The notes below the pieces were generated by a model. The model ran no database searches. It was not told the origin of the DNA and saw nothing but the letters and a program-made list of their open reading frames with translations. Positions 33,731 through 63,797 of a stretch of DNA of 64,000 bases are shown piece by piece (positions within the stretch are counted from its first letter, which is position 1; every line of letters starts with the position of its first letter). The position numbers were made by a program, and so were the translations under genes. Location of the stretch: positions 1-64,000 of the forward strand of contig QJNS01000134.1 of assembly GCA_004154925.1 (NCBI GenBank), read 5' to 3'. This stretch comes from Monosporascus cannonballus. Its lineage: Eukaryota; Ascomycota; Sordariomycetes; Xylariales.

Positions 33731-34143
33731 TATTATAACTTAATAAATTACGGCTTCCAAAAACGGTCGTAATAGGAAGGCCAAGAAAATTATGTAAATT
33801 AGGTTACGTAATAGATTACCAACTTATTGGTAATAAGCCAGTAAGCCGGATCGCCAACTTACTGGTAGTAAACTAATAAGCCGGATTACCAACTTACTGG
33901 TGGTAATCCAGTTAACGGAATAAGGATATATACGTTTATTAATTCCATAATTTAAATAATTTTAACTTGTAATACTTATTAATACTAAATGCTTGCAATA
34001 TAATATCGTTACCCAAGGCACTTTTGGTATTACGAGACGTAATACGTTACTATATTTATTGCTCAGATTTCCACGATACTTCTGCTAACATAAACCCGTC
34101 GACTTAAGGTTTAATAGTTGGTTAAACCTCATAGCTCGTCACA
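33731..34143 (+). repeat. 3' LTR of the Gypsy element
   Basis: Ends CTCGTCACA before the ATTAG duplication. It is 35 bp longer than the left LTR because it has three instead of two copies of the ~35-bp internal unit. Confidence 0.9.
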
Positions 34144-50242: not shown

Positions 50243-50837
50243 ATGCGAGCATCAGCTCGACCATCAAGCCCATTTGCGGCTTCACGGACACCATCCTCGA
50301 GTGGGAGCTGGTCCACTTAGACCGTCCCAAGATGCTCGACGGCGTGGAGGCGGTCGCGCGGTACCTCGGAGGCAAAGCAAGACGCTCATGTGGACGAGCG
50401 TGGACGACCCGGCGGCGTACACCATCGAGGCGGTGTTGGGGCCTGGCGCGGCCGACGGCGGCTTCTACCGCGTGCAGAGTTTCCGGGCGTCGCCGCTGGA
50501 GATGGTGGAGGCGTACGAGCGGGCTCGCAGCGTGCGGCTAGAGAGGCAAAGCCTTGGCATGCTCTCAGAGATAGAAGACATGCTCGCGCGGGTGCGCGCG
50601 TCGACGCCGCCTAGCGGATACCACGAGTACATCAGGCTCGCGTACACCAAGTACATCATGAACGGGACCTGGGACGATGAGACGCCGGATTGTGAGCGGC
50701 CTTTTAGTTCTCTTATTCTCAAAAAGGGCTCCAATCACGACGTCCGGCGGACAATGGCGGATGTTTCACAGCATTTTTACGCCCACACTGCCCTTCAGTT
50801 TCCCCGCCCGTCCCGCCTAAAAAAGGGCGGCGGGTAG
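50243..50837 (+). pseudogene. NmrA/isoflavone-reductase-like C-terminal fragment, frameshifted
   Basis: The reading ISSTIKPICGFTDTILEWEL...GVEAVARYLGGK (50250-50375) shifts frame by one base near 50378. It then continues LMWTSVDDPAAYTIEAVLGP, GGFYRVQSFRASPLEMVEAY and YHEYIRLAYTKYIMNGTWDD to about 50690. The style resembles the substrate-domain half of NmrA-type NAD(P)-binding proteins, but the dinucleotide-binding N-terminus is absent. The frame then runs on without conserved sequence until 8 bp before the inverted repeat at 50845. Family assignment is tentative; the frame break is directly visible. It may be an old gene decayed at the edge of the large element. Confidence 0.4.
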
Positions 50838-50844
50838 GGTGCAG

Positions 50845-50872
50845 CACAGGGATCACTGCGACAAAACTCAAA
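50845..50872 (+). repeat. Left terminal inverted repeat, 28 bp
   Basis: Begins CACAGGGATCACTGCG and ends AACTCAAA. It is the exact reverse complement of 63073-63100. Confidence 0.9.
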
Positions 50873-50941
50873 TTTTTAATAGGGCCACCCCACTGTATGT
50901 ATACTGTAGCTACTGAATGCAATTAAGCTAGGTACTTGGCA

Positions 50942-51124
50942 TGCATATATACAAATTCTGCTAACGTATATCTCAATAAACCTTCTTCCCCATATAACTT
51001 CAAGCAGGTAAGTTCATTAATATCTTTGCATATATACGTATTATCATCAAATTAATGAGATATTGATTTTCGTCTCATGAAACCGGTCGAAATGCATATC
51101 TAATTAATTATGATTGATGCATAT
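50942..51124 (+). repeat. Four TGCATAT motifs near the left end of the element
   Basis: TGCATAT occurs at 50942, 51027, 51093 and 51118, all in the same orientation, within 183 bp of AT-rich DNA just inside the inverted repeat. They could be subterminal transposase-binding sites or chance in AT-rich sequence. Confidence 0.35.
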
Positions 51125-51139
51125 TCACAGAAAAAAAAG

Positions 51140-51309
51140 AAACACAGGCTCATCCAGGCTTGTAGAGGGTCATACAGGGCTAATCAAAGGCGCTACAGCG
51201 TGAACAACACCGAATCAAGCTAGACCGTCCCTGATCAAGCGCGCACGGACGCCACCGAACATAAACAAACATCTTCGGGCTCCTGCAGGCTCGCACAGGT
51301 TCTATCAAG
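51140..51309 (+). repeat. Degenerate 10-bp repeat in the 5' leader
   Basis: From about 51141 successive 10-bp blocks read CACAGGCT, TCCAGGCT, TAGAGGGT, TACAGGGC in register. Shortly before the ATG, blocks GCAGGCTC and CACAGGTTC recur at the same spacing. This is the same decamer family as in the gene's introns. Confidence 0.7.
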
Positions 51310-52118
51310 ATGGCGAAGCAGCTATCGTACTGGAAATTCAAGAAAACGCCTCTTATCGAGTTGAACGAGCCTGGCAAGCCCGAAGTCAACAAGGACGACC
51401 TTGATGAGACTAAGAAAGCCCTTAATGTGCTGCGCTTCGCCAAGGAGGTGCAGGTACGAGACTGGCTCGAGGATCATCAGGTAAGTACAGGGCTGTACAG
51501 GGCCATACAGGGACTAACAAGAACGTACAGGAGCTGAAGGCCCTGATCAACCCTCTGAAGCACCGTGACCAGACGGGCAGCCTTGTTGCAGCCACGATCA
51601 AGCTTGAGCGAACCCAGCAGAGACATGCCGTGGCTGCTCATATGGCACTTGAGTCGATCAATAATCGTACATGCAAGAACTGCAAAAGTAAGCCTCATAC
51701 AGACTCCTACAGGGTTGTACAGACCTATGCTAACCGATACAGACCCGCGTAACGAGGGACCGTTCCGTATCTGCCGTTCATTCGGCCCGGACGTGTTCAA
51801 AGGAGCCTGCCAATGCTGCCAGTACTCCTCGCAAGCCCATAACTGCGAGTTTCATGTCAGTAAGAAGGGTTCCGCCTTCGCTCAGCTCGGTAAGTGCATG
51901 ATTAACTCTGTACGAGCTTGTACGGGCTTGTACTAACCAGTGCAGACGAGGACGAAAGCGATGGTGATGATGCATGGCCGGTCATTACTCAGGAGATGCT
52001 CAAGAAGGCTACTACGCGCCAGCTCGAGCAAACAGTTATCTGGTGCAAGGCTGAACTGGCTAACAGAGAGGGTCTCGCGATCTCTCCGCCTTCTGCTAAG
52101 AAGCGCCGCCGCAACTAA
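51310..52118 (+). CDS. Small cysteine-rich DUF3716-like protein carried by the element
   Basis: A four-exon model of 215 aa: 51310-51480, 51531-51687, 51743-51889 and 51946-52118. All introns are GT-AG and all phases close. A central Cys cluster, C105-x2-C108-x11-C120-x11-C132-x2-C135 with C144, includes RTCKNCK, GPFRICRSFGP and GACQCCQYSSQAHNC. It resembles the fungal DUF3716 domain, a small presumably zinc-binding module of unknown function. The N-terminal half is charged and helical-looking (KKALNVLRFAKEVQVRDWLE). The C-terminus is acidic (DEDESDGDD) and then ends in a basic KKRRRN, a possible nuclear signal. The gene is intact although the rest of the element is RIP-mutated. Its introns and flanks are built of a 10-bp repeat. 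A role in the element's mobility or control is a guess from position only. Confidence 0.8.
51481..51530 (+). repeat. Intron 1 made of 10-bp units
   Basis: After GTAAG the 50-bp intron consists of TACAGGGCTG, TACAGGGCCA, TACAGGGACT, AACAAGAACG and a final TACAG, all in 10-bp register. The last unit is the splice acceptor, and CTAAC straddles two units. Confidence 0.9.
51688..51742 (+). repeat. Intron 2 made of 10-bp units
   Basis: After GTAAGCCT the blocks CATACAGACT, CCTACAGGGT, TGTACAGACC, TATGCTAACC and GATACAG are in register. The GCTAAC branch point and TACAG acceptor fall on the same phase. Confidence 0.88.
51890..51945 (+). repeat. Intron 3, partly 10-bp units
   Basis: The 3' half reads TGTACGAGCT, TGTACGGGCT, TGTACTAACC and AGTGCAG in 10-bp register, again ending in branch point and acceptor. 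The 5' half is diverged. Confidence 0.82.
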
Positions 52119-52120
52119 GG

Positions 52121-52192
52121 GACAAATAGGCTAGTACGGGGTTGTACAGGCTTCTCAAGGGTCATACAGGGTCGTATATGGTTTAATCAGGC
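52121..52192 (+). repeat. Degenerate 10-bp repeat after the stop codon
   Basis: Starting 3 bp after the TAA: blocks CTAGTACGGG, GTTGTACAGG, CTTCTCAAGG, GTCATACAGG, GTCGTATATG and GTTTAATCAG in exact 10-bp register. Beyond about 52200 the DNA becomes AT-rich and only loose TACA motifs are seen. Confidence 0.85.
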
Positions 52193-52903
52193 ATTATAAA
52201 GATTAATACCCCAAGGAAGCATATTTCAAGGGCCGTCGCGCCCTTATTAGAGGTTCTATAGGCCGCAAAGGCCCAGATTAAGAATGATAGGCTATGTACA
52301 AGGCAGTACAGCTTAGAGCAAACGAATACAAACTCGTACAATTCCAAAAATATTTTTATAAGTTTTATTCATAATTATTAATATTTTTATTTTATATTAA
52401 CGTATTATACAAATAAGCTGGACATATAAATAAGCTGAACACTTTTTGGCATTTTGCAATAATAAATTCAAATAAAACAACTATAACGTAATAAATTAAT
52501 TTAAATTAATCGGATTTTATTTCGCTAAACGTATTTATAATTTTCTTATAAATACGCATATTATATCCGAGTTTGCTACAAATGTTACATTTCCGTTCTT
52601 TCGCTTAAACCTTTTTGCGACGATTATTTTTAACTGTTACTAATTGCGATTATTTATTATTTTTTTTCTTTCGTAGCTATAAAAATTTATATTTCTCTTA
52701 CAATAAATATTTCTTTTTTTTTAAAAAAAACCTATATTTTTAATTTTCCGGCGTTTATTAAGGATATAATTCGTTTCGCAAAAGTAATTATTTTTTTTTC
52801 AAAAAAATGTAATTTTATATAAAAACAGTAAGTTAATTTGTATTAAAAAATTAACTGATTTAATTATTTTTTATTAGCAAATTGTCTTAGTACTTTTTGA
52901 TTT

Positions 52904-52936
<33 letters not shown>

Positions 52937-53165
52937 GCAAATAATGTCTATCGAATTACTTTAATAATATTTTTAAAGATTTTCGCAAATAAGAAATTAA
53001 CAGAATTAGTAAAAATAAGCGGCGAAACGGTTAATATAGATATAATTAAAACTTTTAATTAGGAAAAAACGTAATTAAGATCGAATAAAATAAATTCCAC
53101 TTTTACGAATCCGGATTTAATAATATCGGTCGTTATAACAGTTTTAAACGCGTTATGAAAGCCGG

Positions 53166-53376
53166 CGATAAAATCTTCCTTAGTAATATAAATAACGTAC
53201 CGCCGTATAAAACTTTCGATATAAAGCGAATACGTACGTTTTAATACGAAAAAACAAAATACGTTAAAAGGTTAAAACCGGTAAAAGAAATAGATAGACA
53301 TATAAAATATGATAATATCGTTAATTTAGCAATATTTTTCGAATTCGATCGAATAATAATTTTCGTGACCGTCAAG
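53166..53376 (-). pseudogene. pogo/Fot1-type DDE transposase remnant
   Basis: The minus-strand reading LDGHENYYSIEFEKYC (from 53376), then INDIIIFYMS, then FNVFCFFVLKRTYSLYIESF and KEDFI, matches the catalytic block of Fot1 transposases around the second Asp (LDGH). It contains stops at RIP-like positions. Only this core is readable by eye. Confidence 0.7.
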
Positions 53377-53906
53377 AATAAAAAGACGTTTCGAACTTTT
53401 AATATGCGTTTTAATATATTTATCGAAATGCTTAATTTATTTTAAATCTAGTTTATTTGTTATCCAACTGTTTTCGCTTATAACAAATTTCCAGTCGGAT
53501 AAATGTAAGTTATCGGCGAACTAACGAAAAAGGTGGTTTTTTCCGACAAAAATAATAAATAAGAGTAAAGCTTAGCTTTAAAAGTTAACGGCTTGTATTA
53601 CTGTAAATTATTCCCGATTTTCTTACTGGGTCTATCGAGGTTTTCTATACTTTTAGCATAAGTAATAATTATACTTATTGTTATAAAAAACTCTATTAAA
53701 AATCTCGTTTCGTCGAAATTATAAATATCTTTTTTTGCGATATCGTATTTTGTAATTATAACCCGGATAAGCTTAAACCATTTCCGAAATATTTCTGGAT
53801 TTTTACATAAAATCTTTAAGTAATTTATTTTTTGATTTAAACGCGTTTCGAGTTTTTTTTTTGCCGTTTAACAAAATTGGATATCTAATTACTCTCGACG
53901 TATCTC

Positions 53907-54084
53907 TGTCAGGTGCTAAGGGGTGTACGCGTTAGGGCTACGTCACCTTTACGAGCTCGATGCGGAGGTCGGCTATATATATGGGTGGTTTCTTCCCAGA
54001 AATGGAGAGAAAGGTTAGGTTTTAGACTGTTCTTAATAAATGGGTTACCTTGCCACTTTGACCTTCTAACAACAACATCTGACA
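53907..54084. mobile_element. 178-bp solo LTR nested in the Fot1-like element
   Basis: Starts TGTCAGGTGC and ends CATCTGACA (inverted TGTCAG/CTGACA), flanked by the 5-bp duplication ATCTC (53902-53906 and 54085-54089). It has a TATATATA box and normal GC content, so it postdates the RIP of its host. The small size suggests a TRIM-like or small LTR family. Confidence 0.82.
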
Positions 54085-54786
54085 ATCTCGTAACGTATTA
54101 CGTAAACAGCAAATTCGCCATATCTTTAACGTACTGACGCCGGATAAGAAACGTTCGCGCATTTAGGTTAAGGATTCGTTCGACGATCGATTTCTTTTCA
54201 ATCGGCGTTAGTTTTTATAAAAAAGAAATAATATCGGTTCGGACGCGTATATCGTTATATCGCGTTTTTAGAGTAAAATATGGGATATTATAAATAAAAT
54301 CAAGCTTTTTATAACTAATTTTCGAGTTATTTTTTTTAATCTAAACGGCTAAGTTTATTTTCGAATTCTTTGTAAGCTGTTCTATATGGTAGTTATTAAG
54401 AAATAAATAATTGAAGTCGGATGATAAAATTATCAAAAGAAAGTGTTGAGCTTATTTGCATGTTCAGCTTACTTATATAGTACGTTATTAATAATTTATT
54501 AATTTAATATAACTTAAATACATTTTCTATAATAATTGAAATTAATATTTTAAATATATTGAATATCATTTTAATAAAATAATTATATTTTGATTTAATT
54601 TTAAAACATTTGAAGTTTTATTAATATAAAATTGTTTATATATATTTATTAATATTTTTATTTTAAAAATAAAATTCAACAATAACAATATAATTATTAA
54701 TAATATTAAAAATATTTTATAAATAATAATAATTATAAAAAGAAATTACTAAATTTAAAATAAATTTAATAGTTTAATATATATAT

Positions 54787-55265
54787 ATTATTACGGCTTT
54801 ATATAATAGCTAAGCGGTTTAACCAACGATTAAATCTATATCGTACAAGTTTATATTAGCAGAAGTATTGTAAGAATTTAAGCAATAAATATAATATATT
54901 ATTATAAAAATACAGCTTCTACGAAGCTACGGCTAGTGTCCGACCAGTTACAGATCCACGCATCAATATAAATAACCATCTAGTAGCTCATAAGAAACGC
55001 CAGATAAAAGTAACCTAATATACTCATTTTTTGAAATCTGCTTTACGACTGGTCGAAAATTACCTTGCTTTAGTTCACAATTATTTATTATCTTATAATT
55101 ATTATATTTTATAATATTAAAAACGCTTTAAATAATAATAATTTATTAAAAATTAATATTATTTAAATTATAGAAATAACGAACGTATTCTATTTACTAA
55201 ATATATTTTTATTATTTTACTAAAGTATTATAATTTCGTGAAATTTTTATAATTTTATTATATAT
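54787..55265 (-). repeat. Left LTR of the reverse Gypsy, carrying an insertion
   Basis: Aligns with 60501-60770 except for the ~190-bp repeat inserted at about 54906-55095. The right boundary is approximate. Confidence 0.6.
54906..55095 (+). repeat. ~190-bp dispersed repeat, copy A
   Basis: Starts around AAAAATACAGCTTCT and contains GTGTCCGACCAG and, near the other end, CTTTACGACTGGTCGAA, so it has imperfect inverted ends. It matches copy B over its length. It is inserted in an LTR, with AT-rich sequence repeated on both sides (possible duplication of about 8-10 bp, blurred by RIP). Confidence 0.7.
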
Positions 55266-56144
55266 ATCGTTTAATTCTCTATTTATTTTAATATTTCTAG
55301 ATATATTTAAAACGTTAAATTTAATACCAATTTGTCATTTTCAGAATTTGGATTTCGAAAATTTATTCGACAAATATTTAATTTGTTATAACGAATTATA
55401 TTAAGAAGTATATTAAAATGTTTTCTAGAACAGATATTACTTAATGTAAACTTTTAATTATTATAATACTTTTTATTAATTTTATCGAAATAGTGTTTTA
55501 TTTGTATTATAAGCGAAAAAAGTAAAATACAAGTTATCGAAAAACGATTTTTTTTCGTTATATATTTTATATTTAAAATAATTAGTCTAATTATAACGTA
55601 TTACTTTGTAATATTGATAATGTAGAAAAATTAAATACATTTAAACGTAATAGATAAGTAAAAGCTACAAAGACCGAATTTATAACGTTCGTTATTTCTT
55701 TCGATTAGTTCAGTGTTAAGCTTATCGCTTAATCGATTACTAATTAAAGAATTCTCGATTTTGTAGTTTTTAACATTATAAATAAAAATTCTTTAATGAA
55801 CATTAGATATTTATAAGGGTTTTGTTAATTTTTTAAATATTTTCGGAATTTGGATACTTTTTTTAATTATTTAAGCACTAAGTAAATTTTTTTCGTATAG
55901 TAAATATTTTTTAATTTATATATGGTATTATTCTTTATTTTTATACTATTTTATATCGTTTATACGTTAATAATATTTATTATTAATTCGGATAAGAATC
56001 AGAAAAAATTAAATAAAGTTTGATTTTAATAGATATTTTAGTTAATAATTATTTTCTAAAGTTTTTTTAACGATTTTATATAAATTAATATATTTCAAAT
56101 GGATCTTGTACTGGGTTTTTTATCTAAATATTTATAAGATAATA

Positions 56145-56335
56145 AGCCACTAAATGCTAAAGTAAAATAACTTTCGACTAATTTCAAACCATATTTTAAT
56201 AAATAAATATATTGCGTTACTTTTATTTAACGTTTCTTATTAGTTATTAGATAGTTATTTATATTAGCGTGTAAATTTGTAATTAGTTAAATACCACCGG
56301 TAGCTCTATAAAAGGTATAATTTTATAATATTTTT
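56145..56335 (-). repeat. ~190-bp dispersed repeat, copy C, inverted and RIP-mutated
   Basis: The run TTACTTTTATTTAACGTTTC followed by TTATATTAGCGTG and GCTCTATAAAAG is the mutated reverse complement of copy B. It lies about 60 bp from copy B in opposite orientation. Confidence 0.65.
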
Positions 56336-56396
56336 AGTAACAAAAAAAATATTTCCATTTTTTCGAAATATATCTTTTTAACCGTTTTTTATTATT

Positions 56397-56590
56397 GTAA
56401 AAATACAGCTCCTATAGGGCTGCGACTGGTATTCGACCAGCTATAGATCTACGCGCTAATATAAATAACTATCTAGCAGCTAATAAGAAACGCTAGATAA
56501 AAGTAATTTAATACACTTACTTCTTGGAATCTGCTTTACGACTGGTCGAAGATCATCTTACTCCAGCTTATAGCTGTCCATTATCGTATA
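56397..56590 (+). repeat. ~190-bp dispersed repeat, copy B
   Basis: The best preserved copy: AAATACAGCTCCTATAGGG, then GACTGGTATTCGACCAG, and near the end GCTTTACGACTGGTCGAA. TTCGACCAG recurs in inverted form at both sides with equal spacing to ACAGCT motifs, suggesting a MITE with poor terminal repeats. It interrupts Gypsy integrase sequence. Confidence 0.7.
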
Positions 56591-59500
56591 GTTATAATAT
56601 TTGCTTATCTGGTTTCGTACAAATTCTAAATTTGTTTTTATTTCTTAATGTAATTATTTTATTTATTTTAATATAAAATTTATTTTAACGTTAATAAGTT
56701 CATTATATACCTCTTTGTAAATATCTGGTATAAACTCAAAATTGAAATATATTAAGGTTATTTTAATATTTGCGTAATAATTAATATTATAAATTTACTA
56801 GGTAATAAGTCATTTTTTAATCTAGTTAATTTGTTTATATTTAACATAATACCGCAAATATATTTTCAGTATTTAGTTTCACTGTTTTATTTGTTCGTTT
56901 ATTTAAAGTTTAAATATGCTGGGTAACTTATAATTTAAATTAATTTAAAATTTAAAACTTTGCTAAAATTTCGAAGTAAACGTAAAATCTTTATTTAAAA
57001 TAATTTTGTATAGTAATTCGTATTTACTAAAAACGGGTTTAAAAAATATATGCCATTTATTCCGTATTTATATTCTTTTAATACGGTAAGAAACATAAAA
57101 AAACGTCGTAAATTATTTACCGATTACGAAAATATTATAGTAATATGATTTTATCGTTAGATTTTTAAACAAAAAAACTTTAATAAAAAAATTTATAATA
57201 ATCGATTTCTATGATTTTTTTAATACTGATAATGGTTGTAAATTTTTGTATAGCTTATGTTGTTATATTTTAGATTTAATATATACGTTGCATTATTTGT
57301 TTTGGAATTACTGTTTTCATTTCTAGAAAAAAATATATGCGTTAAAGCCGTTTTAAAGATTTGTAAATCTCTGGATATCTATATAACTGATATTTATATA
57401 TTTTTCGTATTAGAAGTTTTTAGTATATATTTTGAGTTTTCTAAAAGACCGTTATTATACTATTAGATTTTCTAATATATATTAAAAAGTAATATCCGAA
57501 TTGTTGTAATATATTATAAACGTAAAAATGTTTTATAGTAATATTAAAAACAATATAGCTAACTTTAACTAATTTTTTCGAGATTTAGTCGTTTATTTAC
57601 AATATCGGTTTTGTTATTTTCTAACCTCTTTTATAAATAATAACAAAATGGAAGTTTAATAATTTTTTGCGTATTTTAATCATCATTTTATAAGTCTTTT
57701 AGTCGTAGCAAAACGAGTAAAATCTTGATATTTCCGTTAAGGTTGTAAATAAAGTAAAATTTCGTCGAAAACCCTTTTTTAAAAATTATTTCATAATTTT
57801 ATTTGCTATATTCTGGTAATTTTATATCGAGTTGTTTCCGAAAATGTTACTGATATTAATAATATTATAGTAATATATTCGTTAAAGTTTCTAATTTTTG
57901 AAGTTATTATTTTAAATCGTTATTTAGTTATCTTAGTATCGCTTTAATAATAGCAATTATGCGTCGTATTTTTCTTTAATGTCTATTTTTTTTATTTTTT
58001 TTGTTTTTGAGTAGTAAAATATTTATCGTATTTTTATGCCTATATTTGTCGCTGTCTTCAACTAAATACTCAAATTTCGTTTTTTCTTATTTTTATATAT
58101 TAATAAACTCTAAAGAAAACCTTATCTGGCTAGTTTTTTTTATTAATTAAAACCTTGTACTGGTATATTTATATTTTGTCTAAGATTATACTGTAATTTC
58201 TAAATAGAACGATATCGAAATTAATTATCCGATATCGTTTTTAAATAAGAATTTCGAAATAATTAATTTCGCGTATAATGTTTCTGATATTGTAACTAAA
58301 TTTCTAACTATCGATATTTGTTATTATATAGAGTTTTAATTTATATTTAGTTTAATATAATTTCTATCCAAAATCTCGTAATTTATTATTACGGTAAACT
58401 AATACGTTTCGATTCGAATTTTTAAAGTAACAAGGTTATTAACGACTTTTATTATCGTATTTAAAACCTTGTTTAAATGCTTTTTCTAATCTTTCGAGAT
58501 TTCGTTATTTTTTTAATTTTCTTATAAGTAAATTTCGTTTGTTAATTTCTTTTCGAATTTGTCAAATTTTGCTTATATTTCTTTATATAGCATATTAAGT
58601 TGTTATCTTTATCGTGATTATCATCGTACTGTTTTTTTAAACTATATTAATCTTTTTTAATTTTACTGTAATTTCTTCTATTAAGTAAACTGTTTTTATG
58701 TAGCATATATCATTTTATTAAGCTTTTTAGGATTCGCTATTTTCTTAATAAAATCCTTAAGTAAACCGTCGAATTTCTTCTTTAAAAGATATTTTTCGTT
58801 AAAGTTTATAATAAATATGAACTAAAAATAGAAATTTATAATAGCTTTTTAGTAATACTTTTTTACCATATATTAAATTAATTCTTCTTTTATTTAATAG
58901 TCGCATTGCTTATAATAATAGAAAGAATTTTTTATAGATATTATTTTTTAGATCAACTTTTTAATACGGTTAACTAGTAAATATTATTTTCTAGAGTTAT
59001 AGATCGAAAATGCCGATATTATTATTTATTATTTTTGTTATTTTCCATTCGATTTAAATAATCGAATTGTTTATAATATATATGAGTAATGTTTTATAGA
59101 TATACCGTTTTTATTTTTTATAATTAAGATATTTCTGTTATTAATAATATATAACGTATATTTTGTCGTATCGATCAAGAGTTTTGTAACAAACGTTTTT
59201 TATTTATTTTTAATATTTTTAACCGTTTTTTGAAAATATCTTGTTATTTTTTAAACGCTTTCTAGGCTAGGTTTTTTGCTTTTTATATCTTTTATCGAAT
59301 TTCTTATCGAGAGAGCTCGTTTTTGTACTGGGCTCGAATTATATTAACAACTTTATTATCGTTTTTTGCTTATTTCTAAATTATCTTTTCGGTATAGATA
59401 TCTAATTATTGTATTATAAGTTTTTGAATAAAAAATATTTAAAAGTTTTATATATCTTTTTCTTATAATAATAATATTTAATTTGGTTCTAATCTTCTTT

Positions 59501-60500
59501 ATAAGTAATTTCGAATTTTATAGATCTCGGTTTTATGCTGTAAAAAGTGTTATTAGGTCGAAAAATATTGATATTAACCGTATATCGAAACTTGTTATTA
59601 TTTTTTAATATCTTTAATATATTAGATATATTGTTAATCGTTAAATGTAATTGCTATAACAATGTAATCTAGTAAATAATTGAATTAAATAAACTTAAAA
59701 AGCTTTTTCTGTGCTTTCTTTTTTAAATTAGTAAAAAACTTAGTTATTAACGTTTTTTGTTTCTAATTCAGCTTAGATACCAGCTAAATAAGCGTACTGC
59801 TATAGCTGGATATTAATCTCTTTTATTATAATTGTTGGATTTATATTTCAGCCTTTGTTTTTTCGTTTACTATTTGAAAAACTTTCGTTAATATTTTCTC
59901 GAATTATTTATAATCGTTATAAATTTGCATTACTTTTAGATTTTCTTTTTCCACCGGTAAAATAATATATTTCTTTATGATCGGCTTAAATTAAATAACC
60001 GTATTTTAAGTACGTCGTTTAATTGTAAATTTAATTTACGTATTGGACGTAATAAATCGAATAAGAAAATACTTACAATATATTTAGCATTAAGTTAAAA
60101 ATAATTATAATTTAATTAAAATTTCGTTAAAAAGTTCCGACTTAAAAGGCTTAATAACTTTTTCTAGTTTCTTAGTAACATTTGGCTAAATAACTTAGTT
60201 CGCTCGAAAAAGCTTTCGGTTTCGAAAATCTTCTCTTTTTTCTTAAATTTCTCCTAAGCGGCTTAAAAGAACGTCGTAAGATTATTCTTGTCCTTTTTAA
60301 GCTAAATATTATGTTTATATATAGTATCTAGATATCGAAAAACATTTTTTCAAAAAAGGCGAAACTGTTTTTTTTCTTTAAATTTTATTCTAATATCTGG
60401 ATTATTAAGGACATAGCAAATAAGCTGTTCGAGTTGTTTGTTAGTAAATATAATATCGGCGATATTGCTTAAAATCTAACGATATTACTGAACAAAAACT

Positions 60501-60770
60501 TGTAACGTATAACGACTAGACGGTTTAACTAGCGATTAAACCTAAGTTATACGATACGAATTTATATTAATAAAAGTATTGTAAAAATCTAAGTAATAAA
60601 TATAATAACTTATTACGTTTCGTAATATTAAGGGCGTTATAAATAACGATATTTTATTATAAACTGGAATTATTTAAATTAGAAAAATAACGAACATATT
60701 ATGCATATTAATTATAGTTTATTTTTCTGCTAGTTTATTATAATCTCGCAAAATCTCAATAATTCTAACT
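60501..60770 (-). repeat. Right LTR of the reverse Gypsy
   Basis: Begins TGTAACGTATAACG. Alignable to the left LTR through GGTTTAACTAGCGATTAAACC and AATAACGAACATATT. The end is approximate. Confidence 0.6.
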
Positions 60771-61880
60771 TTTCTAAACTTTACAAGATGTCAATAATTC
60801 TATTATACAACTCTTTTTTAAAACTACACTTTTGTTAATCATTTCTGAATATATTAAAAACGTTAAGTTATAACACTTGATTTTTTTATAATAATTTAAT
60901 ATAAAAGAATAATTAAAATTCTTTTTTAAATTATTTATTTTAATAATATAATAGTATAAAATAAAGATATATAATATATATAAATATAATTTAAAAAACA
61001 ACTTTATTATTATTAATTCTAAAAATTATTATATAATGAAATTTTCAAAAATATTAAATAATAATGATAATTATGTTATATCTTATAATAAAAGTTTTTA
61101 CTTTTTAATATATTTAATTTTTAATTTACTTAGGTATTTTATTTACTGTAAAATATAAATATAATATATTTTTATTAATTTTATATTTTAGTATATTAGT
61201 AAGTTATATATTATAAGTGAAATTAAATTATTTTTCATTAACTTTAATAAAATCTATATAAATTAGTTTTTTATAATTATAATTATCTTTTAATAAGCAA
61301 TTATTAATAATTTAAAATATTAGTAAAAAGCAATTTACTATTAAACAACAATTTTTAACAAATATAAAATATAATTAATAATAAATAAATATAATTATTT
61401 CAAAAGATATTATTATCTTAATTAATATTAATATATATTTAATTATTAAAGTTTTATAAATTGTATTATTTAATAATGTTTAAAAACTTATAAGTAAAAC
61501 CTAATTATATATAGAATAAATTTTTAATTCTTATATAAAACTTTTAATTTATATTAATTAAAATTTATTATGTTTTAAAATATTTGTTAACAAAATTTAA
61601 AATTAGGTGTATAAAATTGAAATAAAATTTAATTTAATAATAAAATTTATAAATTCATTATAACTTATAAATTTATCAGTATAATAAATAATAAAGAAAT
61701 TGAAATACTTAATTTTTACTTATATTTTTAATTTATTCTTAAAATGAAGCTTAAATTTAAACATATTTTATTTTCTTTAAAATTAAAGTTATGAAAATAA
61801 AAGATTTATCTTAATTTTAAATTTATATATTATATAATAATAAAAATAGAAAATATTAATATATAAACCTTAATAAAGTT

Positions 61881-61940
61881 TATATCGCCTGTATAACTAT
61901 ATACATCTTTATACGAATCTGTAATAGCTTTATATTTCTT
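61881..61940 (-). repeat. RIP-mutated decamer array, inverted orientation
   Basis: Blocks TATATCGCCT, GTATAACTAT, ATACATCTTT, ATACGAATCT and GTAATAGCTT are in 10-bp register and read, on the minus strand, like decayed TACAGG-type units. Confidence 0.45.
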
Positions 61941-62910
61941 ATAATAAGTTCTTTTTAGTTTTACTTATATTTATCTTTTAATTTTTTGTTTTTCGTATTT
62001 TTTACAATATGCTGCGTTTTCGTTTAAATCTTAAACCTTGTCGCAAACAAATTAGTTAACGTAATTAATTTTGTACATATTTAGATAAAATTATATAATG
62101 TTTATTTAACTAATACAAAGTTAATACTCTTTGTAAAACTTTTAAACAGCGCTTTTTAAAATAAGGCGTATTTAAATATAAGATTTATATAAACACGTTT
62201 AAAATATTACGCATTCGTATCAGCCATTTTTACTATAAATATAAATATAATAATAATAAAATTTATTTATATTTAAATCGAAAAAAGTTTATTATTTTTA
62301 TTATTAAAATTAAACTTATTTATTATAAACTTAATATTTTTGTTGTTATAATTTTATTACTTTTATCGTTAAAATTCATCGGTTTTTAAAACATTTTATA
62401 AATAAGTTATTTACGACGTTTTATACTGTTTTAGTATCCGACTTATATATGTATAATTTCAAAAAAAATTAAAACTTTTCATATATTATTTGCATTATTT
62501 ACAAAAAGCTGCATCTAGTAAAAGTATATAAACGTTGAAATAGTTTATATCGGTGACGTATTAATTAAATTTCTTTGAAGCCGAATTATATAAGATTTAT
62601 AAATATATTTTTTAAATTTACGTAATATGGATTAACGTTTATATAAGCATAAATACTTATTTACAGTATATTATATAATTTTATATCGGTTTTAACGGTT
62701 TAATTTTCCGTCTTTTATTTAATATTTATATTTTATTAATATTATTAATTACATTCTTTAACGGTATTTACAGTAAAGCGACATATAATTAATTAGATAA
62801 ATTATTATGAATACAGAAAAAGTTAGATAAAGCAAAGGCTTAGATAAAAATATTTGTACGTAAATAATAGGATTGATTTAAATAAGATAAACTTGTTACG
62901 AAGCTTTAAA

Positions 62911-62952
62911 AGATTGTATAAATCTATACAAACTTGTGCAGATTTGTATATA
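62911..62952 (+). repeat. RIP-mutated decamer array near the right end
   Basis: Blocks AGATTGTATA, AATCTATACA, AACTTGTGCA and GATTTGTATA are in exact 10-bp register. Reversing C-to-T/G-to-A changes would give TTGTACAGG-like units as in the left part. Confidence 0.5.
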
Positions 62953-63072
62953 ATTATTCTACGCTTTTTAAATATTTATTTAAGTAATATTTCGTTTAGG
63001 GTGACAAGGGAATTCTGCTTAATTTATTAAATATTTTTTTAAATTTACCCGGGTGTATATATATTTACAATC

Positions 63073-63100
63073 TTTGAGTTTTGTCGCAGTGATCCCTGTG
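63073..63100 (-). repeat. Right terminal inverted repeat, 28 bp
   Basis: Exact reverse complement of 50845-50872, ending GTGATCCCTGTG. It is unmutated although the adjoining interior is RIP-like. Confidence 0.9.
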
Positions 63101-63797
63101 ACACTCCGTAGGCGGGGGCTGCAGCAGTAGTGGCATCCCCGCCGTCCCCGCATTTATCTCTACCCTCGAAGGCCACGATAACGTTAAAGGATCAGATCGG
63201 CTTGCCATCTACGTAATCTCCTTTTTCCAGAAGAAGCATGCTGGACGTAGCAGCGAATGGTCTATTGCCCAATCCAAGGCCGAGAAGTCTGTGAAGGCGA
63301 CTCTTTGCTACCTTTGTGATGTTGATTCTAGTCGGTCTGAAGGTATTTTCACCAATTCTCTAGATGACACGGGAGGTTATTTTTATTAAATATGGCGAGA
63401 AGCTCTACAGAAGGACTTCACTGAAGAATCGATCGTAATCGTGCTGGTCAATGCCTACGAGGTACTTATATCGTTAAACCTGTGGTTTCATGTCTAGGTA
63501 GTGCAGTCGTGAATGGATGATCCGAGTCGCGAGAACATGTTCTTACCATGCCCACGCAAGGCTCTTAAATGGATCCACGAAGCCTGTCAGATCGGGAGTA
63601 GCGTCTGGCACGAATAAGCTCTAGATTTCCGGGCAGAGAGCTCAGCTACACCTGATGTGAAGTTCTCAGATACAGATCGTTGGGTGCGCTGGGTCCTAAT
63701 AATCCTTCGAAAGGGACTTCTGATATACACCTCTCATTCTAACACACAACACTCTTTCCATGTAGCTTGCAACCCCACTTGATTATCCTAAATACAG
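63101..63797. other. Right flank of the element, no confident gene
   Basis: Composition returns to normal at once. A plus-strand frame of about 80 codons (about 63140-63388, containing DRLAIYVISFFQKKHAG) and a following piece (REALQKDFTEESIVIVLVNAYE) look coding-like, but I do not recognise them and a stop separates them. They may be a gene fragment. Confidence 0.35.

Follow-up and report, generated by a model that had tools for sequence, protein, structure and literature searches.

A single degenerate decamer, approximately RTACAGGCTT, forms in-register arrays in the 5' leader, the three predicted introns and the 3' flank of a DUF3716-like gene of Monosporascus cannonballus, and none in the exons of this gene. 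The gene lies inside a DNA transposon with terminal inverted repeats (TIRs), at positions 50835-63110 of the window, that is, of the whole stretch of 64,000 nucleotides that was analysed. Our tentative explanation, drawn from sequence, is that the decamer arrays may be family-specific binding sites for a factor encoded by this IS3EU-like element.

A decamer unit shared by leader, introns and flanks

The gene (51310-52118, forward strand) was modelled with four exons, at 51310-51480, 51531-51687, 51743-51889 and 51946-52118, which would encode a protein of 215 amino acids; the model draws on gene prediction, a Pfam match and a homologue. The three predicted introns, on the same strand, are 50, 55 and 56 nt long (51481-51530, 51688-51742 and 51890-51945). 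Intron 1 is made of decamer units, and introns 2 and 3 are decamer arrays. Scoring with a model of the unit delimited two blocks in the leader, at 51143-51202 and 51262-51309, the second of which was also found by the array scan described below. Two further arrays, also in forward orientation, lie in the 3' flank (52123-52210 and 52286-52345), and another near the right end of the element (62888-62975).

Periodicity was measured as the identity of a segment with itself at a lag of 10 nt, and tested against 500 dinucleotide shuffles per segment. This identity was 0.463 in the leader, compared to 0.258 in shuffled sequence (z = 5.8), 0.675 in intron 1 (z = 5.8), 0.556 in intron 2 (z = 5.0), 0.478 in intron 3 (z = 3.7, lags 20 and 30 being even higher) and 0.419 in the 3' flank (52119-52345, z = 5.5). 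In none of these segments did any of the 500 shuffles reach the observed value. The four exons were at chance (z = 0.1, 1.1, -1.1 and 0.0), and the 280 bp upstream of the leader (50860-51139) gave no lag-10 signal (z = -0.5). An earlier, sequence-only reading of this DNA had claimed a decamer register in introns, leader and 3' flank but not in exons, and the z-values bear this out (3.7 to 5.8 compared to -1.1 to 1.1). Its description of leader and flank as made of such units has to be narrowed: arrays are present in both, but the middle of the leader (51203-51261) is non-array and a gap (52211-52285) separates the two 3' arrays. It had also seen the array of intron 3 in the 3' half only; the first 20 nt are indeed weaker, while the z-value of 3.7 applies to the intron as a whole.

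The decamer model derived from the arrays of the window holds 0.24 to 0.82 bits per position. In a leave-one-out procedure, each of the seven gene segments and the right-end segment was scored with a model trained on the other segments only. All eight scored 20.9 to 34.3 bits, a level that no segment attained in any of 1,000 shuffles; the highest-scoring exon window had 4.8 bits. We conclude that the same unit is present in all eight segments, including the right-end array, which is approximately 10.5 kb from the nearest other array and yet has the same decamer.

The surrounding transposon

The element is bounded by TIRs of approximately 38 bp at 50835-50872 (forward strand) and 63073-63110 (reverse strand), which differ by 5 mismatches, the right one ending in CTCCGTA. 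Outside them lie the two matching copies of a target-site duplication, GGCGGG (50829-50834 and 63111-63116). Among the stretches of the host genome that were fetched, a perfect 6-bp target-site duplication was found in 10 of the 10 copies with both ends; in all of these, one end reads TACGG and the opposite end TAGGG, TAGAG or TAGTG. The TA..TA termini and the 6-bp duplication both agree with IS3EU. Compared with the TAYGG..CCRTA pattern and TIRs above 30 bp of the rust families of this group, the right end (TACGG) fits and the left end (TAG[GAT]G) does not. Because of this misfit, and because the putative transposase frame is broken by RIP-like stops and gave no convincing profile or database match, the element is called IS3EU-like here, and proven IS3EU membership is not claimed.

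The putative transposase gene is represented in the window by a RIP-like remnant of its 5' part (61916-62761, forward strand), with relatives on four other contigs (C476, C2, C92 and C189). It had no protein-database match, and its Pfam and PDB matches were at chance level only; it may resemble the integrase-type transposases. A candidate decamer intron in this gene was dropped, since its score in the L039 copy was at chance level and the stretch reads as coding in three copies.

The RIP substrate index of the stretch with gene and arrays is 1.15, that is, not RIP-mutated, and that of the right part of the element is 0.61, that is, RIP-mutated. A single copy thus combines a RIP-free gene and arrays (51140-52345) with a heavily mutated other end (61916-63108), for which selective retention and later exchange are both possible. 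Between the two parts lie approximately 9.5 kb of AT-rich, RIP-like DNA (52409-61915) that are absent from L039 and probably consist mostly of insertions; they are partly common to L055 and L040, and because of the part common to L055 they need not all be a recent insertion. This DNA includes an open stretch of 89 amino acids (53598-53867, reverse strand), to which Pfam gave no support and which presumably resembles pogo/Fot-type transposases. Elsewhere in the window, a 35-bp repeat of 2.8 copies (33814-33912) lies at the border of a different AT-rich region (27-34 kb).

Arrays in other copies and in control loci

The host genome yielded six copies that carry the gene: the window copy, L039 (contig C333), L040 (C476), L041 (C2), L042 (C46) and L055 (C92). 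Five of the six are mutated. As RIP turns C into T and G into A, it leaves purine/pyrimidine letters untouched, and the array scan was therefore run in these letters, using a 60-bp test with a threshold of 22 bits; the maximum among 60 simulated sequences (522 kb) was 17.0 bits. Arrays of 22 to 34 bits were found in L039, L040, L041, L042 and L055 and within the window element, L055 having a single array above the threshold. No array of at least 22 bits was present in 12 control loci (L043 to L054, highest score 15.1), which were chosen by terminal-repeat match and consist of a short relative or an element end with flanks rather than random host DNA. The same held for L056 (highest score 18.0) and for the remainder of the window. 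In the window copy, intron 1 and the first block of the leader fall below the 22-bit cut of the 60-bp test; in a 50-bp template test they scored 45/50 and 43/50, where the simulated maximum for the window copy was 40.

The sequence-only reading had proposed looking for the decamer in paralogues, and these do share the array: the 10-bp period occurs at matching places in all six copies, although it is weak in parts of L055. RIP-blind lag-10 z-values, averaged over the six, were 5.5 for the leader, 3.8, 3.2 and 3.3 for the three introns and 3.5 for the 3' flank up to 52210, compared to -0.1 to 1.0 for the exons; the weakest single values were those of L055 intron 2 (1.9) and of the L055 3' flank (1.8). 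Exact-pattern searches of the genome were of little use. Two units with at most 3 mismatches gave 12 sites, compared to 4 for the reversed control, and three TACAG cores spaced by 10 bp, with at most 1 mismatch, gave 15, compared to 8. Four sites were exact for three TACAG cores, two of them in the DUF3716-like gene; the C2 copy has the third, and the fourth, of different make-up, lies on C13.

At element positions 3738-3808 of L039, and also in L040 and L041, an array overlaps the frame of a third gene on the minus strand, near its likely start codon. Inspected by eye, the frame is open at the overlap in L039 and has one RIP-type stop each in L040 and L041. Because of this overlap with an open frame, the arrays cannot be called strictly noncoding.

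The decamer is absent from short sibling elements that have the same termini. Tandem units were examined in four of the seven short sibling copies with both ends. Three of these (L045, L047 and L049) carry other units, a 9-bp CTAACTGAC-like and a 17-bp ACCTGATCTTATCGTCG-like one, and the fourth (L050) has only a weak 9-bp array. The arrays of 9-bp and 17-bp units, at L047:6606-6769, L045:3737-3923 and L049:6398-6500, vary in copy number.

The DUF3716-like gene and its product

The predicted protein matches Pfam PF12511 (DUF3716) with E = 1.3e-7. A database search returned a protein of Monosporascus sp. mg162, also of 215 amino acids and 79% identical over its full length, which supports the exon model. 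All three database homologues come from Monosporascus (Xylariales), namely from sp. mg162, M. ibericus and sp. MG133. The protein is Cys-rich and has a basic C-terminus. A structure obtained via a homologue (P0001) was set aside as an unusable model (pLDDT 37.5); the PDB held no convincing solved relative (best E = 0.16), and a literature search for DUF3716 found no paper mentioning the domain.

A divergent DUF3716-like stretch outside the element (L057, C300:283500-286500) gave a weak match (E = 8e-4) and contains one in-frame TGA. No decamer array was found in it (top score 12.1 bits). The stretch forms one uninterrupted piece across the position of intron 2, where gain and loss are indistinguishable from one relative. 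The proposal that the introns arose from the array found no support in this comparison: the intron sites are the same in all six copies, and the weak C300 relative only hints that intron 2 is not universal.

Unit gain and loss, and constraint on the arrays

Comparison of paralogous introns, another check attached to the sequence-only reading, revealed gain and loss of units. Intron 1 is 50 nt long in the window copy, L042 and L055, and 60 nt long in L039, L040 and L041. The first 3' array differs from that of the window copy by +10, +19, +20, +10 and -30 bp across the other five copies. Two other array indels reached at least 4 nt: L040 has -15 in the second 3' array, and L042 has -4 in intron 3; indels of -5 (L042) and -6 (L055) lie just upstream of the leader array, and indels of 1 to 2 nt occur at several places. 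Whole-unit change is thus the rule for the larger indels, with exceptions. Concerning unit copying between segments, the longest shared run was 14 nt (P = 0.03 with independent columns, 0.11 with neighbour dependence).

Transversions per site in the exons were 0.036, 0.058 and 0.091 at first, second and third codon positions; from this order, the copies diverged partly under coding selection. The corresponding values were 0.036 for the introns, 0.046 for the leader arrays, 0.052 for the first 3' array and 0.109 for the second, and 0.052 (5' end and upstream), 0.095 and 0.096 for non-array stretches. Intron cores, taken without the splice signals, had a transversion at 11 of 103 sites, compared to 43 of 208 third positions (nominal P = 0.04, six copies); when L055 was left out, the counts were 4 of 103 and 28 of 213 (nominal P = 0.009), and over three alignment settings the nominal P ranged from 0.009 to 0.04. 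All array cores except the second 3' array (30/258) were also less variable than third positions (nominal P = 0.01) and than two chosen noncoding stretches (26/128, nominal P = 0.03). When the second 3' array was added (45/307), the difference from third positions faded (nominal P = 0.06 to 0.30 over settings), and no difference was found from noncoding DNA that included the upstream stretch (54/362, P = 0.46 to 1). Since this recount removes the array-wide difference, the evidence for sequence constraint on the arrays is mixed, and constraint is suggested for the introns only. Introns and exons had similar rates of RIP-type transitions (0.260 and 0.253 per site), and the arrays thus gave no visible protection against RIP.

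The recount therefore led us to hold the binding-site explanation less firmly, and to give more room to the arrays being neutral minisatellites, in which slippage makes and turns over 10-bp repeats wherever coding permits and no binding factor takes part. We consider this a serious possibility, if on balance a doubtful one. The unit-size indels are as expected from slippage, as are the exons of the DUF3716-like gene without arrays, and arrays taken as a whole are not clearly more conserved than other noncoding DNA. However, slippage alone does not account for the same unit in eight segments that lie apart, with one close to the far end of the element, and intron cores change less than third codon positions.

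A role in splicing or at the RNA level appears improbable. Here the unit would supply a donor-like GTA and the acceptor TACAG, and introns would have arisen, or would grow, from array that is spliced out. The sequence-only reading had placed the splice signals in phase with the units. This holds for the acceptor in all three introns; the phase of CTAAC is equal in introns 2 and 3 but different in intron 1. The one-unit variation of intron 1 between copies also suits such a role, as does the preference of the leave-one-out model for the sense orientation in six of seven gene arrays, but intron 3 scores better in reverse. Arrays are found, moreover, in the leader, in the 3' flank and near the right end, where splicing is not known. 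Five array pieces had no significant RNA fold (z between -1.4 and +1.2), and Rfam contained no match to the arrays at E = 0.1.

Finally, nucleosome affinity is linked to TA and CA steps every 10 bp that alternate with G+C, so that the period and the TA ... GC alternation of the unit could favour nucleosome placement through such flexible steps, with no element protein involved; but nucleosome preference needs no fixed sequence, whereas the segments tested have one unit in common that goes beyond period and composition (arrays permuted by column, with the period kept, reached the segment score in 0 to 5 of 1,000 trials), which leaves such a chromatin role highly improbable.

A possible family-specific recognition motif

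Under the binding-site explanation, the decamer would be the recognition motif of one family of IS3EU-like DNA transposons. Its head-to-tail copies, roughly one for each helical turn, would occupy many noncoding parts of the element (leader, introns, 3' and intergenic stretches, subterminal DNA). It could multiply in these noncoding parts without harm to coding sequence. We infer that the element encodes a DNA-binding protein which would coat the arrays; the coating would mark the element to be expressed, freed from silencing or transposed. The Cys-rich DUF3716-like protein is the first candidate for this role, with the transposase as the alternative. Family specificity is proposed because the short siblings with the same termini are without the decamer, three of them carrying other units. 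The sequence-only reading had likewise suggested protein-binding tracks of a mobile element; in its favour, a TIR element does surround the gene and the unit recurs near the far end, while the mixed evidence for constraint weighs on the other side. Against the binding-site explanation also count the RIP-type transitions, which did not spare the arrays, and the array that runs into an open frame.

Comparison with known systems

In introner elements, a repeated sequence supplies both intron sequence and splice signals. Introners occur as copies that were inserted as introns into many host genes, and no such spread of the decamer was seen in the sample scanned: neither the 12 control loci nor the window outside this transposon had an array. 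Elements of the CACTA (Spm/En) and Ac types have short repeated motifs near both ends that are bound by element proteins. Here, by contrast, arrays also fill introns, and short siblings with the same ends are without them.

IS3EU elements have TA..TA ends and usually 6-bp target duplications (PMC10045372, in the parts of the text available), and families of rust fungi have TAYGG..CCRTA ends with TIRs above 30 bp (PMC12730594, likewise in part). As far as these excerpts go, fungal IS3EU elements resemble the present one in TA..TA ends, 6-bp target duplications and accessory genes beside the transposase (PMC10045372; PMC12730594). They differ in that one end here is TAGGG, not TAYGG, and in that the accessory gene is DUF3716-like, not TET/JBP or alpha-kinase. 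The term 'tandem repeat' has no occurrence in PMC12730594. Among the papers listed by literature searches on tandem-repeat introns in fungi, on minisatellites as a source of introns, on anti-silencing in fungi and on introns of IS3EU, there was no fungal precedent.

The sequence-only reading knew of no described fungal element with this layout. For fungi this agrees with the papers listed by these searches, but VANDAL21 of Arabidopsis has nearly this layout. According to the available portions of two reports, the ChIP signal of VANC21 lies in introns and in intergenic and terminal noncoding regions of VANDAL21, on tandem repeats of a nine-base motif; other motifs are present in a related family (PMC5735166; PMC10398659). 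As far as those portions allow, VANDAL21 and VANDAL6, with their VANC anti-silencing proteins, share with the present element a short tandem motif in introns, intergenic and terminal noncoding DNA. A further likeness, within the same limits, is that related short elements carry different tandem units, as VANDAL families do. VANDALs are, however, plant elements with other proteins, whereas the present element has IS3EU-like termini and duplications and a DUF3716-like accessory gene. Because its termini and target duplications fit IS3EU, the likeness would be a convergence. By analogy, a fungal IS3EU-like element may independently have evolved VANC-like self-recognition, in which the DUF3716-like protein would bind arrays that colonised noncoding DNA, including its own introns, and would protect or activate its own family only; we regard this as unlikely, yet worth stating. 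If true, self-recognition through tandem motifs hidden in introns and spacers would have at least two origins, one in plants and one in fungi, among transposon groups that are not related. A protein domain that now lacks a known function would also gain one, and there would be a simple way to test whether family-specific counter-defence is carried by the transposons of fungi whose genome defence is strong.
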